From: an uncultured Bacilli bacterium
GTDB lineage: Bacteria; Bacillota_I; Bacilli_A; RF39; UBA660
NCBI GenBank assembly: GCA_947630055.1
Contig: CANRGA010000007.1
Location: 1-41,792 of the forward strand
Direction: 5' to 3'
DNA length: 41,792 nucleotides
The notes beneath the pieces are model-generated. The model saw only the letters and a program-made list of their open reading frames with translations, did not search any database and was not told the DNA's origin. Of the stretch, positions 3,300-20,514 are shown piece by piece (position 1 is the first letter of the stretch; each line of letters opens with the position of its first letter). Position numbers and translations under genes: made by a program.

Positions 3300-3599
3300 A
3301 TGGCTACAACAAAAGATTATAGAGATTTTGTATTGGAACAATTAAATTTATTAGATAACATCACTTGTAAATCAATGATGGGAGAATATTTACTTTATTA
3401 TAATGGAATATTATTTGGTGGAATATATGATGATAGATTACTTGTTAAGATAGTAGATAGCAATAAAAAATACAATATGCAAGAATCTATACCTTATGAT
3501 GGTGCTAAACCTATGTATTTAGTTGATGATGTAGATAATAAAGAATTATTAAAAGAAATTGTTATTGAAACTTGTAAAGGCTTACCAATAAAAAAGTAA
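3300..3599 (+). CDS. TfoX N-terminal domain protein
   Basis: A 99-residue protein matching the TfoX/Sxy N-terminal domain. Visible hallmarks are the SMMGEYLLYYNGILFGGIYDD stretch (read as SMMGEYLLYYNG then ILFGGIYDD, about residues 25-45), the LLVKIVDSN strand and the PMYLVDD strand. In Proteobacteria full-length TfoX controls competence, but standalone TfoX-N proteins in Firmicutes have no agreed role, so no function is assigned. An AGGAG motif supports the ATG. It sits 15 bases upstream of the broken DUF3781 gene, with which it is often found in this kind of genome as small housekeeping-like hypotheticals. Confidence 0.8.
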   Translation: MATTKDYRDFVLEQLNLLDNITCKSMMGEYLLYYNGILFGGIYDDRLLVKIVDSNKKYNMQESIPYDGAKPMYLVDDVDNKELLKEIVIETCKGLPIKK

Positions 3600-3614
3600 A
3601 GAGGTTTAAATTAT

Positions 3615-3859
3615 ATGAATAAAGAAATATTATTATCAAATATTGATAAAATTCATACTACTGAAATGGGTATTGATAGAATTAAAAAAAATCTAAAACT
3701 AGATACAAATGATGTAGTAGAATATTGTAAAAATAAAGTTTTAGAAAAAAATTGTAATATATTTAAACAAGGAAAGAATTGGTATTGTGAAATTGAAATA
3801 TAATAATAACTATTAACTCATATAGCTATACAATTATAACAGCACATACTATTCGCTAA
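3615..3859 (+). pseudogene. DUF3781 family gene with a frameshift
   Basis: The first 62 codons encode a typical DUF3781 start (NKEILLSNIDKIHTTEMG, then RIKKNL) and stop at TAA 3801-3803. Reading in the -1 frame from 3797 continues the family's expected C-terminus: IIITINSYSYTIITAHTIR, ending at TAA 3857-3859. A single missing base near 3796 (for example GAT changed to GA) explains the break. DUF3781 function is unknown. It could be a real mutation, a sequencing or assembly error in an A/T-rich run, or, less likely, programmed frameshifting. Confidence 0.8.
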
Positions 3860-3943
3860 ATTACAATTTATCTAACTCTCACTTTATGTCCTGTTTATTA
3901 TTTCAAAGTAATTTTATAATTGTTCTTGAAAGGAACGAGAAAT

Positions 3944-4828
3944 ATGGATCAAGAGAAAATAGGAAAGTTTATTGCGAATTGTAGAAAAGAGCAAAAATTA
4001 ACCCAAGAACAGTTTGCTTTAAAATTAGGAGTAACTGCTAAATCAATAAGTCGTTGGGAAAATGGTAAAAATATGCCAGATTATTCTATTTTAAAAGAAC
4101 TATGCAATATATTAGATATTGATATTAATGAATTTTTAAGTGGTGAAAAAATTAAAAAAAGTGAAATTCAAACACATAGTATTGAAAATCTAGATCAAAT
4201 TCTAAAAGAATATTATAAGATGAAAAAGCAAAAAAATTTATTTAAATCTATAGCAATTATTATTGGATTAATAACAGTTAGTTTAATAGTTGTATTTAAC
4301 TCCATATTTTTATTTATGGGAGTATTAAATAAAGAAGAAGTAATAACTAATATAAACCAATATTCAGAAGTTATTGGAATTAATGCTAATAATAAATATA
4401 AAGATAAATGGGTAATGTCAGAAGAAATATTTCCCGAGTCAATTAATGAATTAGATGTTAAAGATTTCAAAATGGTTTATTTAGATGCCTGGGATAAGCA
4501 ATATTTAGCTTATTTAGTAGTAGACTATTCTGAATCTGAATATGCTAAAGAAGTTGAAAGATTAAATAATTATGGCATAGAAGATTATATTGGTTATTAT
4601 AATGTAACAGGATTTACTAATTATAAATTATTAGCAATGGAATCAGATTCATATCAAGGATTTGTTTATGCAATTACTGATGGTAATAGTAGAATAATAT
4701 ATGTTGAAATGATATTCTGTAATTATTTTATGGATATTAAATATAATAAATATATACCACATAAATATTTACCAGATGGATTTGATGCCACAGTAAGTAA
4801 TAGTTATAGAAAAAAATTTATAAAATAA
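3944..4828 (+). CDS. XRE-family regulator with a membrane anchor
   Basis: A 294-residue protein. Residues 1-65 form a Cro/CI-type helix-turn-helix: IGKFIANCRKEQKLTQEQFA, then LGVTAKSISRWENGKNMPDY and the LCNILDIDINEFL end helix. A linker is followed by one strong membrane segment (about residues 96-118), and the C-terminal 175 residues have no recognised domain but are probably outside the cell. Such one-component HTH-membrane proteins can link an envelope signal to gene control; the target is unknown. The ATG at 3944 is preceded by AAAGGAAC; a TTG 24 bases upstream is less likely. A GTTC-N7-GAAC imperfect inverted repeat (about 3921-3935) overlaps the leader and could be an operator. Confidence 0.8.
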   Translation: MDQEKIGKFIANCRKEQKLTQEQFALKLGVTAKSISRWENGKNMPDYSILKELCNILDIDINEFLSGEKIKKSEIQTHSIENLDQILKEYYKMKKQKNLFKSIAIIIGLITVSLIVVFNSIFLFMGVLNKEEVITNINQYSEVIGINANNKYKDKWVMSEEIFPESINELDVKDFKMVYLDAWDKQYLAYLVVDYSESEYAKEVERLNNYGIEDYIGYYNVTGFTNYKLLAMESDSYQGFVYAITDGNSRIIYVEMIFCNYFMDIKYNKYIPHKYLPDGFDATVSNSYRKKFIK

Positions 4829-4911
4829 TTATAAAATACAATTTATATGATTAAAAAGGTGTTAATGTCAATTAAAAATGATATAATGGTTTATGAAAGG
4901 AGTAGATGATT

Positions 4912-5382
4912 ATGAAAAAATTTAATGTAGTATTTTTAAGTTTATTAATTGTATTATTAATTACTGGGTGTGGAGCTTCCCAACCAAAAGAGCAAAAACT
5001 AGTTTGTACGACAACTCAAAGTGAAGAAGGAATGGATTCTGAACAAGTAATTTCAATGACTTATAAAAATGATAAATTAAATCATATGACAATGGAATTT
5101 AATACTAAAATTACAGATTCTAAAATAAGAGAAAATTGGGATGAATTTAAAAAGACAATGGATGAAACTAATAAAGAGTTTAACAAAGATGGTGTTATTC
5201 TAAAAGTAGAAAAAGATGATCAAAATTATGAATATAACATAATATTAGATATTGATGTAGAAAATGCTAGTGAAGAAGTATTAAAAGAACAAGGATTTGA
5301 AAATTTAAAAGATGACAATAGTACCTTAGAAAGTAGTAAAGAATCTGCCGAAAAAGATGGTGCTACTTGTGTAGTAAAATAA
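4912..5382 (+). CDS. Secreted lipoprotein
   Basis: A 156-residue lipoprotein. The signal peptide ends in a clear lipobox, LITGC, with the modified Cys at residue 20. The mature part is acidic, with an ISMTYKNDKLNHMTME strand that is loosely like YehR/DUF1307 lipoproteins; that assignment is weak. Anchored to the outer face of the cytoplasmic membrane. The ATG at 4912 has AGGAG nine bases upstream; an ATG two codons earlier is too close to it. A TATAAT box is seen at 4882-4887. It is 20 bases upstream of the bile salt hydrolase gene and may be on the same transcript. Confidence 0.75.
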   Translation: MKKFNVVFLSLLIVLLITGCGASQPKEQKLVCTTTQSEEGMDSEQVISMTYKNDKLNHMTMEFNTKITDSKIRENWDEFKKTMDETNKEFNKDGVILKVEKDDQNYEYNIILDIDVENASEEVLKEQGFENLKDDNSTLESSKESAEKDGATCVVK

Positions 5383-7592: not shown

Positions 7593-8194
7593 TGAAACTT
7601 TATTTAGTAAGTAATAATTCTTTATGTGATAATTTAAAATATGATTTTAATACTGATTTGGAAAAATTAAGAATGATAAGACCATTAAGTGTTCAAGGCG
7701 AAGAAGCGGCATTAAAAATTAGTAAAATGCCAATACTAAAAGATGTCGATAAAATATATTCAAGTTTTTTTAGTAGTGCTATTGCTACAGCTAAGTATTT
7801 AAAAGATGAGTTAAATTTAGAACTTAATTTAAGTGAAGAATTAAATGATTGTAAAGTAGGATATTTAGGTAGTAAAAGTATGAGCATGCTTAAAGGTATG
7901 CAAGATCGAGAATTTACTTATAAACTTAATGGTGGAGAATCTTTAGTTGATATTGGTCTTCGCTTAGATAATTTTATAAAAAAACTTAATGTTAATTCTT
8001 GTGTTTTATTTACTCATAAAAGAATTATTTTAGGATATTTATTAAAATATTGTAAATTTGATTATAATTTAGATGAAAATTTAATAGTACTATATCATGA
8101 TCAAATAATTTATGAAGATAGTGATAGTTTATATGATATATATGAAATAGAATTAGAAGATAATAAAATTGTTAATATAGGAAAGTTATCCTAA
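7592..8194 (+). CDS. Histidine-phosphatase-fold protein lacking the catalytic histidine
   Basis: A 200-residue protein with the fold of the phosphoglycerate mutase/histidine phosphatase family. The order of motifs is kept: LYLV at the N-terminus, PLSVQGEEAA, IYSSFFSSAIATA, GGES, and LFTHKRII near the end. But the RHG triad after LYLV reads SNN (residues 7-9), so the phospho-acceptor His is Asn. The second Arg in YSSPxxRAxxTA is Ser. His142 is kept. It is therefore probably not a phosphatase and may bind or regulate. Its start overlaps the rmuC stop. Confidence 0.75.
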   Translation: MKLYLVSNNSLCDNLKYDFNTDLEKLRMIRPLSVQGEEAALKISKMPILKDVDKIYSSFFSSAIATAKYLKDELNLELNLSEELNDCKVGYLGSKSMSMLKGMQDREFTYKLNGGESLVDIGLRLDNFIKKLNVNSCVLFTHKRIILGYLLKYCKFDYNLDENLIVLYHDQIIYEDSDSLYDIYEIELEDNKIVNIGKLS

Positions 8195-8200
8195 ATTTAG

Positions 8201-8229
8201 GACAGAGATTTTTATTCTCTGTCATTTTT
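8201..8229 (+). terminator. Terminator of the rmuC operon
   Basis: GACAGAG (8201-8207) pairs with CTCTGTC (8217-8223), followed by ATTTTTA. Confidence 0.8.
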
Positions 8230-8280
8230 AATTTAAAAAGCCAATATTTTTTGATATAATTATTATACTAGGTGGTAGTA

Positions 8281-8697
8281 GTGAAAAAAAGAAAAATAAT
8301 TTTAAGTATACTTTTGGGTTTAATTATTGTATTAAGTATCTTGTTTATTAATTTTAAAAGTCATAAAACATATAGATTTAAATTACCAATAGAAAGTAAA
8401 GTAGTTAGTGTTAGTTTAGAACAAAATGCCAAAAATAAATTGCTAGGAGATTCTAAAGAAATAAAAAAGTTTTATGAAGTTTTAAAAAATAATTATAAAA
8501 CAAAAATAAAAAGTAGTAATCATAAAAAAGAAGATGGGAAAATAAAAATTGTTTTTTATTATGAAGATGCAATTAGTACAATTATATATTTATATAAATT
8601 AAATGATGAATATTATTTAGAACAAGTTAATAATGGGGTTTATCAAATAGATGAAAAAAAATATAATGATGTTGCTAATTATATAAAGAATCTTTAA
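8281..8697 (+). CDS. Membrane-anchored DUF5301-like protein
   Basis: A 138-residue protein with one N-terminal membrane segment (about residues 6-24) and an extracellular domain. The pattern of an RFKLP start, a helix with KEIKKFYEVL, a DGKIKIVFYY strand and the YYLEQVNNGVYQID end resembles the DUF5301 domain seen in Firmicutes; function is unknown. The start is read as GTG 8281 because AGGTGG at 8270-8275 lies five bases upstream; a GTG at 8272 would overlap that motif. The same GGTGG-type Shine-Dalgarno with a non-ATG start recurs at 38315 and 40141. Confidence 0.7.
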   Translation: MKKRKIILSILLGLIIVLSILFINFKSHKTYRFKLPIESKVVSVSLEQNAKNKLLGDSKEIKKFYEVLKNNYKTKIKSSNHKKEDGKIKIVFYYEDAISTIIYLYKLNDEYYLEQVNNGVYQIDEKKYNDVANYIKNL

Positions 8698-12947: not shown

Positions 12948-13511
12948 TTAAATTAAAAATGCTTCAATTATAATTTGCTTTGTTTTATCTTTTTGATTAC
13001 AAGTAGTTAATACTAATTTAGAATAATCATCTTTTTTTATTTCAATAGTTCCATCTTTTTCTTCTTCATAAATATTATTAATTTTATAATAGTATTCATT
13101 ATTATTATAATAAATAATAATTTCATCGTTAATATTAAGCTTATTTAAATCTTTAAAAAATGATTTACTACCATTACCTGAATGACCAGCAATTGCCAGT
13201 AAACTATTTTCTTGATCTGGCATTGAAGATTTTTCTAATACTTGAATATTTTTATTAACATTATTATTTTTATTTTCAATACTATAAAATCCTTTTCTTA
13301 AATTAATAGCAGGTATTTCTAATATACCAATATAATTATCATTATTTATTTTATGATAATTATTATCGTTTATAGTAGTATTAAAATACTCAGTAATTAA
13401 TTTTTGCTCTTTTTTATTTTCATAATATAAAGAAAGATAATAAATACTTAATAAAATAATAGTAGTTATGAAGATAGCTAGAGCTATTTTAATAATTTTC
13501 TTTTTTGCCAT
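12948..13511 (-). CDS. Sortase family transpeptidase
   Basis: A 187-residue membrane sortase. It has an N-terminal anchor (about residues 6-28), the IGILEIPAINL strand, catalytic His110 in AIAGHSGNG, and catalytic Cys171 in LVLTTCNQ. The usual Arg before the last strand reads Lys178 (KTKQIIIEA). Sortases cut a C-terminal signal of surface proteins and link them to peptidoglycan or pilin partners. The gene overlaps the end of the upstream adhesin gene by 23 bases, so the adhesin is the obvious substrate. The start has no strong ribosome site of its own, which fits coupling. Class cannot be assigned with certainty. Confidence 0.88.
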   Translation of the reverse strand: MAKKKIIKIALAIFITTIILLSIYYLSLYYENKKEQKLITEYFNTTINDNNYHKINNDNYIGILEIPAINLRKGFYSIENKNNNVNKNIQVLEKSSMPDQENSLLAIAGHSGNGSKSFFKDLNKLNINDEIIIYYNNNEYYYKINNIYEEEKDGTIEIKKDDYSKLVLTTCNQKDKTKQIIIEAFLI

Positions 13512-15957
13512 AGCGATAAAGCCCTAAAGATATAAAAATACTTATTATGCCTATTATATTAATTATTGTATTTCTATTATCTAATGTTTTAGATACAGAT
13601 AGAACTATTCTTTCATTAGTCATATTAGCTTTGATTACTTCGCCATCTTCAGTTATTTCAAAAAAGTTTTTACTATTATTTAAGACATAACCTTCTGGTG
13701 CTTCACTTTCAACAAAGTAGAATTTACCTACAAATAAATTTGGAATTTTTATATTTCCATCCTTATCAGTATAGCCTTCAAATATTAAAGTACCATTTTC
13801 ATAGTCATCTTCATAAGTGTAGACTTGAATTTTAGTATTAGGTAAAACTTCTCCTGTTGATATATCACTTTTATTAAATTCAAAAGTACCTTTAGGTAAA
13901 TAATTTTTGAAAGTAAAAGATAGACTTACAATATCGGTATATTGATCTTGATATTTTATTTCAAAATAATGTTTAGTTGTATCTAGTAAATAACCATCTA
14001 AAGTTTTACTTTCAACTAAATAATATTTTCCTAAATATAAATTTTTAATATCAAACTTGCCATCTTTAGTAATATAGCTATCTATTAGAGTATCTTTTTT
14101 ATAAATAAGAGTACCATCGCCAGAATAGATATCATCATTTGCATATAACTCATAAGTTACACCATCTAAATCTATATCTTCATAGTAAAATTTATTATCT
14201 TTTAAAACAACTTTTTCACCTACTTTATGAATATTTACTTCACCCATAACTTCTTTATTTTCAAATCTTGCTTCTAAAATAGTTCCAAGTTCATCATCAT
14301 AAATAAAATCAGAATCATCATTAATTGAAAATAATAAAGGTGTTTTATTCCATAGATAACCAGGTATTAATTGATTTTCTAATTCTTCAATTTGATAATT
14401 ACCAGCTTCTAGTAAATAAGGTGTAATGAACATACCATCAGTTGTACTAAATTCACATATTTTTTCTGATTTAGGATAAGATACATTTTGACAAACATAT
14501 TTATTAGTATCAAGATTTTTAATTTTAAATTTAATACCATCTTTCATTAAAATCCTTTTAGAATTACTATCAACTTTAACTAATTTTAAACGTGCCATAA
14601 CTTCACCATCAGAAATAACTTTTGTAAGTGGTTCATCATCTGCAACAACAATTTCAAAATCTTTAATTTTTTCAAATCCAGATGTTGTAGATGTTTGTTT
14701 AACTATGTATGTTCCAAAGGGAAGTGTAAGAGTTATATGGCCATCTTTATCGGTAGTTTTGGTTGCTACTAATTTATTACTAGATTTTAGATAGAATTCA
14801 AAAGTGACATTAGGTTCAGATGTAAGTATACCTGTTTTACCATTATTAATTACTTTATAAAATTCAATTTTTTTCTCAATAACTTTTTCATATACTTTGA
14901 TACTTGGATTAAGATTATCTTCATTAATTTCAAAGTAGTATTTTTGACTATCTAAAGTATATCCTTTACTTGGTTTAATTTCTTTTAAATAATATCTTCC
15001 TAATTTTGGTAAGTTAGGACTTGTAACTTTAGAATTACTACCAATAGTTACTTCTGCAACTTTATTATCATCACTATCATAAATTCCATAGATAGCTCCT
15101 TTTAAAGTAGCATCACCTTTAGGAGTAATTGATAAATTATCTTTATCTAATTTTTCTACTGTAACTTTTCCACCTAAACTTTTAATTGTCACTTTAAAAG
15201 TAATTTCTTCACTTAAACCAAAGTAACCCATTTTTTGCGAAATTTCATCTATACCAGCATACATTGTTGTATTTTTACTAGCATATTGTTTTCTTTTTAA
15301 AGTAATGGTAATATTTCCAACTTTTTTTGGTATAACATTTAAGTTATTTCCTTCAATAGTTGCTGTAGCATTGCTATTACTTTTAACTTCGTAATTAGAA
15401 AGTAGATTACTATTGTCAGTGAATGTTACAGTACTACCAATTGTAGTAGTTTTTTCTTCATTAGCAAATGATGGCATATTATAATGACTTGCAATTAAAT
15501 TATTTATTTCATTTCGCTCGGTACTTATATCAATAAAATCACCATGACCTGATGCTTCTGTCCAATATTCAACTTTACCATCACCAGTTAATTCCCAAAT
15601 TAAAGCTTGGGTTGCCATTCGATATTTTAATGTTTGATGAGTAGGATAGTCATAACCATAATAGCCAATTAATTGCATTTTTTGGTTTATTTCATCACTA
15701 TAAGGTGAAGTAGTAAGACCACCAGTTTCTTTATAATCTAAAGTTGTAATATGCACCCCTGGCTCTATGCAATAAGTAGTATTACCATCAATATTATACT
15801 CATGAAATTTAGCTGAGAAATATTTTTCACCTCCTCCATATCTTACATACCAAACATTATCAATTGGTGCCTTAACTAATTTGACTGCATTTACATCTTT
15901 AATATTACTAAATAACACTACTGCAAATACCACTAAAAATTTCCAATATTTTTGCAA
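13489..15957 (-). CDS. Thioester-domain adhesin with SpaA/Cna-B repeats
   Basis: An 822-residue surface protein. Signal peptide about 1-24. A TQXA thioester domain (about 25-160) has Cys63 in TYCIEPG and Gln117 in ATQALIWE, the pair that forms an internal thioester able to bond covalently to host targets. An Ig-like/Big region (about 165-260) and about five SpaA/Cna-B domains (about 265-350, 360-440, 450-555, 565-665, 680-775) follow, likely stiffened by isopeptide bonds. The C-terminus has SVSKTLDNR, a hydrophobic span and a GKKENY tail. This is sorting-signal layout, but the motif is not LPXTG. The start is TTG 15957, with AGGAGG nine bases upstream. It is coupled to the sortase gene. Confidence 0.9.
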   Translation of the reverse strand: MQKYWKFLVVFAVVLFSNIKDVNAVKLVKAPIDNVWYVRYGGGEKYFSAKFHEYNIDGNTTYCIEPGVHITTLDYKETGGLTTSPYSDEINQKMQLIGYYGYDYPTHQTLKYRMATQALIWELTGDGKVEYWTEASGHGDFIDISTERNEINNLIASHYNMPSFANEEKTTTIGSTVTFTDNSNLLSNYEVKSNSNATATIEGNNLNVIPKKVGNITITLKRKQYASKNTTMYAGIDEISQKMGYFGLSEEITFKVTIKSLGGKVTVEKLDKDNLSITPKGDATLKGAIYGIYDSDDNKVAEVTIGSNSKVTSPNLPKLGRYYLKEIKPSKGYTLDSQKYYFEINEDNLNPSIKVYEKVIEKKIEFYKVINNGKTGILTSEPNVTFEFYLKSSNKLVATKTTDKDGHITLTLPFGTYIVKQTSTTSGFEKIKDFEIVVADDEPLTKVISDGEVMARLKLVKVDSNSKRILMKDGIKFKIKNLDTNKYVCQNVSYPKSEKICEFSTTDGMFITPYLLEAGNYQIEELENQLIPGYLWNKTPLLFSINDDSDFIYDDELGTILEARFENKEVMGEVNIHKVGEKVVLKDNKFYYEDIDLDGVTYELYANDDIYSGDGTLIYKKDTLIDSYITKDGKFDIKNLYLGKYYLVESKTLDGYLLDTTKHYFEIKYQDQYTDIVSLSFTFKNYLPKGTFEFNKSDISTGEVLPNTKIQVYTYEDDYENGTLIFEGYTDKDGNIKIPNLFVGKFYFVESEAPEGYVLNNSKNFFEITEDGEVIKANMTNERIVLSVSKTLDNRNTIINIIGIISIFISLGLYRYGKKENY

Positions 15958-18941: not shown

Positions 18942-18969
18942 TTGACTCTCGGGGGGGGTATTATATAAT
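18942..18969 (+). promoter_or_regulatory. Promoter with G8 tract in the spacer, probable phase-variable switch
   Basis: TTGACT (18942-18947) and a perfect TATAAT (18964-18969) are separated by 16 bases, eight of which (18951-18958) are a pure run of G. Homopolymeric G runs mutate by strand slippage, and each change alters -35/-10 spacing; nine G would give the optimal 17. Long G runs are exceptional in this AT-rich sequence. Spacing control is known for other phase-variable promoters; that this one switches is inference. Confidence 0.75.
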
Positions 18970-19023
18970 AATCTTATAAAATAAAGTGCGATGATACGAC
19001 ATGTAAAGAGAGGATAAGATTAG

Positions 19024-20514
19024 ATGAAAAAAGTAATAAAAAATAATTATAAGTTCATATTAGGTATGATATTAGGATTAGTAGTATCAGTAAGTAGTGT
19101 ATATGCAGTAGAGGCATATATAGAAAGTAATAAAGTATCGTATGATAATAGTAAAAGTAATGGTAGTTATAAAGAAGTGCAAAGTTCAATAGATGAGTTA
19201 TATGAAAGAAGTGGAATACATAAAGATAAATGGACAGATAAAACCCTTAATGGTGCAGATCCTGTATTAAAAGATCCGTTAATACCAGTAGAAATAAAAC
19301 CCAATGGAGAAGTATATTATGCCAATTTAAATAGTGAATGGTATAACTATAGTGAAAAGAGATGGGCCAATGCTGTAATATTAACAGATACAGCTGATGA
19401 ATATTCAGTTGGTCAACATATACTTGAAAAAGATATAGAAAGTTATTTTGTTTGGATACCAAGATATCAATATAAAATATGGAATTTAGCCAATACTGAA
19501 GAATATACAAAAACAATAGATTTAGAAACAATAGTTAATACTGCTAAAAAATTATATACATTAAATGATAATAAAATAATAATAGACATTAAATTTGGTG
19601 ATGTAAATTCAACACCAAAAATGAGTGAATCAGATGCTAAATTAAATGAATATTATACTCATCCAGCTTTTACATTAGGAGATAAAGATTTAAATGGAAT
19701 ATGGGTAGGCAAATTTGAAACTGGTTATAAAGGAGCAAATAGTAAAGAAAGTGCTGAAGTAAATGAAGAAGAGCCAACCAGTGTAATAATAAAACCAGAT
19801 GTATATTCATGGCGAAATATTAATGTAAAAAATGCTTTTATGACATCGTATAATTATGAGCGGGATTTTGATTCACACATGATGAAAAATACCGAATGGG
19901 GAGCTGTAGCATATCTTTCTCATTCACAATATGGAATAGGAACAGAAGTAAATATCAATAATGCAAATGATTATAAAACAGGATATAGTGCTGCTCCTGG
20001 AATTGATCGTAACTCTGTGCCAAATGTTAATTCTTCTAGTACTAATTCTAGTATAACTAAACTATGGAATACAGAAACTGGTTATTTAGCAAGTACAACT
20101 GGAAATATAAGTGGTATCTATGATATGAGTGGTGGAGCTTGGGAATATGTTGCTGCATATATGAGTTCTAATGTTGGACAAAGCGGTTTTGATAATGATA
20201 ATGATTTAAGAGGAAAATTGAAAAATTATGTAGATATATACGATTCCCAAAGTACAATAGAATCTTATAATAAAAGAATCTTAGGAGATGCGACAGGAGA
20301 ATTAGGACCGTTTTATAATTATATTGAAAGTAATGGAAAAGCTTATAGACATAGTAGTTGGTATGGTGATCAATCTGATATTATTCATTCTGCAAATCCA
20401 TGGTTTGCGCGTGGAAGTCATCGTACTGGTGGTTCATTGGCTGGAACTTTTTGCTTTCACACTCTTACAGGACGTGCTTCTGATGGAGGATTCCGAATTG
20501 TTTTATCAATATAA
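19024..20514 (+). CDS. Secreted C-type-lectin/FGE-fold protein, candidate DGR target
   Basis: A 496-residue exported protein. The signal peptide ends at about residue 28 (SVSSVYA). Residues 30-65 form a helical stalk (SYKEVQSSIDELYERSG). The second half shows the formylglycine-enzyme-like C-type lectin fold: the NTEWGAVAYLS and GIYDMSGGAWEYVA blocks, then a C-terminal WFARGS...GFRIVLS core. This fold, with the same ending, is the usual target of diversity-generating retroelements, and codons in the last 40 residues carry that signature (see the 20401-20511 entry). It lacks a sorting signal or C-terminal membrane span. GAGGA supports the ATG. It is a single gene between a G8 promoter and a terminator. 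Confidence 0.8.
   Translation: MKKVIKNNYKFILGMILGLVVSVSSVYAVEAYIESNKVSYDNSKSNGSYKEVQSSIDELYERSGIHKDKWTDKTLNGADPVLKDPLIPVEIKPNGEVYYANLNSEWYNYSEKRWANAVILTDTADEYSVGQHILEKDIESYFVWIPRYQYKIWNLANTEEYTKTIDLETIVNTAKKLYTLNDNKIIIDIKFGDVNSTPKMSESDAKLNEYYTHPAFTLGDKDLNGIWVGKFETGYKGANSKESAEVNEEEPTSVIIKPDVYSWRNINVKNAFMTSYNYERDFDSHMMKNTEWGAVAYLSHSQYGIGTEVNINNANDYKTGYSAAPGIDRNSVPNVNSSSTNSSITKLWNTETGYLASTTGNISGIYDMSGGAWEYVAAYMSSNVGQSGFDNDNDLRGKLKNYVDIYDSQSTIESYNKRILGDATGELGPFYNYIESNGKAYRHSSWYGDQSDIIHSANPWFARGSHRTGGSLAGTFCFHTLTGRASDGGFRIVLSI
20401..20511 (+). other. Candidate DGR variable region
   Basis: Between conserved positions, the lectin ligand-face codons are AGT CAT CGT ACT (465-468), TGC (477), CAC ACT CTT (479-481) and CGT GCT TCT GAT (484-487). 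All twelve end in T or C and each can come from AAT or AAC by changing only adenines. The framework codons between them (GGT, GGA, TTT, TTC, CGA) lack this pattern. The block is also more GC-rich than its surroundings. No template repeat or reverse transcriptase is seen in this window. Confidence 0.6.

Follow-up and report, generated by a model that had tools for sequence, protein, structure and literature searches.

Promoter-spacer phase variation is known mainly from pathogens, where it concerns one gene or a small family, and the textbook optimum for the spacer between the -35 and -10 hexamers is 17 nucleotides (nt). Variable CLec-fold proteins, for their part, are targets of diversity-generating retroelements. 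The promoter of porA from Neisseria meningitidis carries a poly-G tract between the -10 and -35 elements; 11 G residues give high expression, with expression 2.2-fold lower at 10 G and 13-fold lower at 9 G (PMC3639595). Poly-A tracts are found in the promoters of all members of the vlp family of Mycoplasma hyorhinis, and a dinucleotide repeat is found in the promoter spacer of vmm in M. mycoides (PMC10502178). A G(8) tract controlling a type III methyltransferase in a metagenomic Mycoplasma population was reported as phase-off among length-variable repeats (PMC5476646).

Here, we describe a G8 tract in the promoter spacer of a surface-protein gene from an uncultured Bacilli bacterium, located within a stretch of 41,792 nt that was analysed as a whole and is hereafter called the window. 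The locus resembles porA in that a surface-protein promoter has poly-G in its spacer. However, porA is a single gene with 9 to 11 G and demonstrated graded expression, whereas about 36 promoters per genome carry the tract here, with G8 as the mode, and the window's own species, unlike porA, is nearly without tract variation. It also resembles vlp and vmm, whose hosts are Mollicutes, in having a homopolymer or repeat in surface-gene promoters, but the vlp and vmm repeats are poly-A or dinucleotide and their switching has been demonstrated experimentally, while the present system is poly-G and its switching is a prediction from sequence. A sequence-only reading of the window had proposed a switch with no described example in this lineage; this must be narrowed, since vlp and vmm are promoter-tract switches of Mollicutes (PMC10502178), and it stands insofar as those are not poly-G. 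We propose, with a probability of roughly 0.6, that the locus belongs to a genus-wide promoter class for surface and envelope proteins, in which the tract is tunable by slippage and is parked at G8 in the window's species.

Results

A G8 tract in the promoter of a surface-protein gene

Eight consecutive G residues lie between a TTGACT and a TATAAT hexamer with a 16-nt spacer (18948 to 18963), exactly as the sequence-only reading had it (Table 1). This site received the top sigma-70-like score of its region, matching 11 of 12 hexamer positions, and the sequence together with conservation of both hexamers places the homopolymer between the -35 and -10 elements of a putative promoter. When both strands of the 41.8-kb window were scanned for runs of at least seven G, the tract was the only match, with shuffled sequences averaging 0.11 G7 matches.

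Table 1. Features of the tract promoter and the gene behind it (window coordinates)
Feature	Position	Strand	Basis
-35 hexamer TTGACT	18942..18947	+	Sequence; identical in most boxes of the same genome
5' flank of tract, CTC (3-nt class; CC in several sister species)	18948..18950	+	
G8 tract inside spacer	18951..18958	+	Sequence; G-run scan of window and genome
TATTA, 3' part of spacer	18959..18963	+	
-10 hexamer TATAAT	18964..18969	+	Sequence; sigma-70-like scoring
AATCTTATAA, conserved downstream part of box	18970..18979	+	Copies in the same genome; congener search
Leader common to paralogues, with probable ribosome-binding site AGAGAGGA at 19007-19014	18980..19023	+	Near-identical in most paralogues of the same genome
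P0001 (496 aa), predicted CLec-like surface protein, secreted or anchored, family A, hypervariable C-terminus	19024..20514	+	

The gene behind the tract had been read as encoding a secreted surface protein, and this was borne out by the N-terminal hydrophobic segment of P0001, which is typical of secreted or anchored proteins. Pfam, NCBIfam and PHROGs gave P0001 no family assignment. Searching solved structures with a profile of eight P0001 relatives from the same genome returned weak matches, the best being 5vf4_A ("uncharacterized protein"; E = 0.0013), and a very weak match to PvdO; the predicted structure of P0001 had a pLDDT of 30, too low for use. Motifs in its C-terminus (GIYDMSGGAWEYVA ... 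GFRIVL) appear to resemble those of C-type-lectin/FGE-fold proteins. In a surface protein encoded elsewhere in the window, on the minus strand at 13489-15957, Pfam identified a thioester domain and five SpaA repeats.

Tract promoters throughout the genome

The genome to which the window belongs (1.19 Mb in 60 contigs) was examined by searches and in selected stretches. A search with TTGACTCTCGGGGGGG, allowing up to three mismatches, returned 24 matches, with 0 for the reversed control. Runs of at least seven G numbered 38 genome-wide, 37 of them exactly G8 and one G7, with none longer, and 35 of the 38 sit in promoters. The remaining three (two G8 and the G7) belong to a repeated element at contig ends without promoter hexamers; at the ends of C23, C25 and C31 (L118, L119 and L120), this probably mobile element carries its G8, G8 and G7 run after GGGACTTTGTCAATATTTAGGACAATAAAAAGA and falls outside the promoter class described here. 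One further promoter carries G6 (L028), and by hand count the genome has 36 tract promoters, 35 with G8 and one with G6. Thus, G runs are present in the promoters of paralogues, a check suggested along with the original reading, and G8 promoters occur genome-wide far beyond chance.

Twenty-nine of these promoters by hand count, 28 with G8 and the one with G6, form class 1, defined by a TATAAT-like -10 element placed 5 bp after the tract. G8 is also the length in the other seven; in several of these the tract directly adjoins the -10 element and its distance to the -35 element differs. On C2, C6, C8, C15, C16, C27, C37 and C41, a contig end is no more than about 125 bp away from a G8 box, so the assembly may lack or truncate further box-driven genes.

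Two paralogous families with hypervariable C-termini, A (which includes the window gene) and B, dominate the genes behind these promoters. Members of family A are 59-71% identical to P0001, and box-driven paralogues of both families are overall 27-71% identical to reference members. Recent duplication was ruled out as the cause of G8 uniformity in this clade, as the paralogues are well diverged. Genes outside families A and B include those for an acyltransferase, an AMP-binding enzyme and a DUF6591 protein; also among tract-promoter genes are an array of three surface-protein genes ending in LPxTG-like PKTGDN motifs and a gene whose product is TasA-like by N-terminal resemblance only.

Distribution in the genus and family

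Of 38 congeneric genomes, 25 contain the core GGGGGGGN6TATAATNNTNTTAT with up to two mismatches, a count that includes the doubtful G001, where it occurs only as GGTGGGG; the reversed-pattern control was near zero. The richest congeners have roughly 25 to 40 class-1 copies. Sampling of 291 family members revealed similar sites in 13, spread over 9 of 150 genera. Where records with the box are named, they are assemblies of uncultured Bacilli that bear the label "Lapin", presumably from rabbit gut, and no box was found on viral contigs. Downstream of some boxes in G010 and G017 (L068, L079, L086, L087 and L098), a palindrome-like ACAAATACGATATTTGTG or a near variant precedes another TATAAT-like site, and the two may represent an operator and a second promoter.

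Tract length is uniform in the window's species and variable in sister species

Tract lengths were read from consensus assemblies, one per species, in which minority alleles are hidden and several boxes lie at contig ends; a hand tally of about 310 class-1 tracts in about 20 species gave one G6, 16 G7, 227 G8, 61 G9 and five G10. Class-1 tracts were divided between 17 G8 and 8 G9 in G003, 12 G8 and 13 G9 in G009, and 5 G8, 4 G9 and 2 G10 in G020, with a wider range in G014 (1 G7, 15 G8, 11 G9), G022 (1 G7, 33 G8, 3 G9, 1 G10) and G025 (8 G7, 25 G8, 6 G9, 2 G10). Tracts changed faster than their flanks in G003, G009, G014, G020 and G025; G009 illustrates this, as its 25 copies all agree at each of the eight positions upstream and at the first 13 downstream, yet their tracts divide 12:13. 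When tract lengths were mapped onto trees built from the downstream sequence, changes were as numerous as with shuffled labels (8 versus 8.8, 13 versus 12.1 and 4 versus 4.5), a scatter expected from fast slippage, to which recombination shuffling promoters among paralogues could contribute. Loss of mismatch repair was rejected as the cause of variable tracts, since a full-length MutS is present whether a species has fixed or variable tracts. The proposal of a phase-variable switch is thus supported at the level of the genus, where lengths from G7 to G10 are scattered on trees in several sister species, but not at this locus, whose species has G8 at 35 of its 36 tract promoters and none of G9 or longer.

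Apparent spacing constraints and the preference for eight G

We then considered 175 class-1 promoters whose -35 element is clear. In 93 of them the -35 hexamer and the tract are 2 nt apart (CC or a similar sequence), and in 80 they are 3 nt apart (CTC or the like). The tract has nine or more G in 32 of 93 with the 2-nt flank versus 1 of 80 with the 3-nt flank (Fisher P = 2e-9; Mann-Whitney P = 0.015 across species), an effect partly confounded with species relatedness, as species are not independent points. Since long tracts are nearly confined to the shorter 5' flank, total -35/-10 spacing appears constrained. Spacers of 16 nt were the most frequent (102), followed by 15 nt (60), 14 nt (7), 17 nt (4) and 18-19 nt (2); the rare 17-nt spacer, originally proposed as the target of slippage from G8, is thus not supported as such.

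Spacing alone fails to explain tract length, because G8 is still the mode with the 2-nt flank (55 of 93), where it gives a 15-nt spacer. Class 2, in which the tract abuts TATACT and the -35 element lies at 18 or 15 nt, keeps G8 at 12 of 12 sites in four species (G000, G010, G017 and G020), apparent orthologues included. Together, these observations make a second constraint, acting on the tract itself, likely. A single genome has exact G8 at -35 spacings of about 15, 16, 18 and 19 nt and at 0 or 5 bp from the -10 element; such retention of G8 in other promoter geometries is not what a switch acting by spacer length alone, as first conceived, would predict.

The same observations lend support to a less likely, tentative alternative, namely that G8 is a fixed recognition element, with C-G8-TA beside the -10 element read by a trans-acting regulator or imposed by a holoenzyme or DNA-shape requirement. 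The surface-protein regulon would then be coordinated, and length changes in sister species would be tolerated or harmful by-products. Besides the exactness of G8 at differing distances and in class 2, this alternative gains from the constant context of the tract in the window's genome, where C always precedes it, TA always follows it and G is always on the non-template strand, from its presence before unrelated gene families, and from G8 being the modal length at similar sites in other genera of the family. On the other hand, length is clearly unfixed in the five species with fast-changing tracts, and no obvious palindrome surrounds the tract. CsoR/RcnR-type repressors (PF02583) were considered as readers of the tract and rejected, as they were undetected in the box-rich G003, G010 and G013.

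We regard it as rather unlikely that the window locus is actively phase-variable in its own species, alternating between G8 (16 nt) and G9 (17 nt). Its architecture is like that of porA and vlp, lengths vary in sister species, and the G(8)-controlled methyltransferase offers a parallel (PMC5476646), but the absence of any tract of nine or more G in its genome and the genus-wide rarity of 17-nt spacers both count against such alternation. That the box was merely copied with expanding surface-gene families, G8 having no function of its own, fits its place before two paralogous families with near-identical leaders but is highly improbable, as G8 copies keep the box from the -35 element on (with a leader common to many) while the sequence upstream differs between most, unrelated genes whose promoters are laid out differently also have G8 in front of them, the tract has persisted through far-reaching divergence of the coding regions, and an old neutral tract should show substitutions or shorter remnants, of which one, the G6, was seen in the genome.

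Diversity-generating retroelements beside box-driven genes

The genome contains three diversity-generating retroelements with a reverse transcriptase and a bAvd-like protein; a MutS-domain-I protein was present in both that were scanned. On C43 (L063), the template and variable repeats (8137-8248 and 8454-8565) differ at 22 positions, all of them template adenines; adenine accounts for 36 of the 112 bases in the template (binomial P = 1.4e-11). The variable repeat belongs to a box-driven family-B gene beside the retroelement, and among genes the template matched this neighbor alone. The C3 retroelement (L065, C3 11000-25000) has four tandem template-repeat units (3508-5138; 146 bp compared), flanked on one side by its target gene, which has no G8 box, and on the other by the accessory and reverse-transcriptase genes.

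Families A and B appear CLec-like and related to targets of such retroelements, and the hypervariable window gene, whose family has this boxless member next to the C3 retroelement, is probably a relative of these targets. Unlike them, its C-terminus has no adenine-only match to the four C3 template repeats, so that it was rejected as a current target; a template for it may be unassembled or unrecognised. Across congeners, the distribution of the box does not follow that of the reverse transcriptase: eight species have a reverse transcriptase without the box, and several have boxes with the reverse transcriptase undetected. Dependence of the box on retroelements was thereby ruled out.

Discussion

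Most probably, the window locus has the potential to switch but is parked at G8. In the proposed promoter class, a sigma-70-type promoter carries a G tract with a preferred length of eight just upstream of the -10 element, and slippage of DNA polymerase in the tract would shift the -35/-10 spacing in 1-bp steps. Each change in spacing would alter transcription of its surface gene independently. The tract in the window's species would be stable at G8, with its 16-nt spacer, through selection on length, and recognition of the G tract itself perhaps also holds it there. Species with the 2-nt 5' flank would let the tract drift from G7 to G10 (14-17 nt), providing a spacer-length rheostat or contingency switch.

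In this uncultured gut Bacilli lineage, a spacer tract of the phase-variable kind, or its fixed form, precedes about 36 genes simultaneously, most of them for surface proteins, and sister species are caught in fixed and in variable tract states. Some box-driven genes adjoin diversity-generating retroelements, which suggests a testable two-layer diversification of the surface, in protein sequence and in expression. We consider it possible, with some doubt, that G8 is at once a dedicated recognition element of an envelope and surface regulon and a slippage-tunable spacer; if so, one sequence would coordinate regulation and at the same time let dozens of hypervariable surface proteins be tuned stochastically, each independently of the others.
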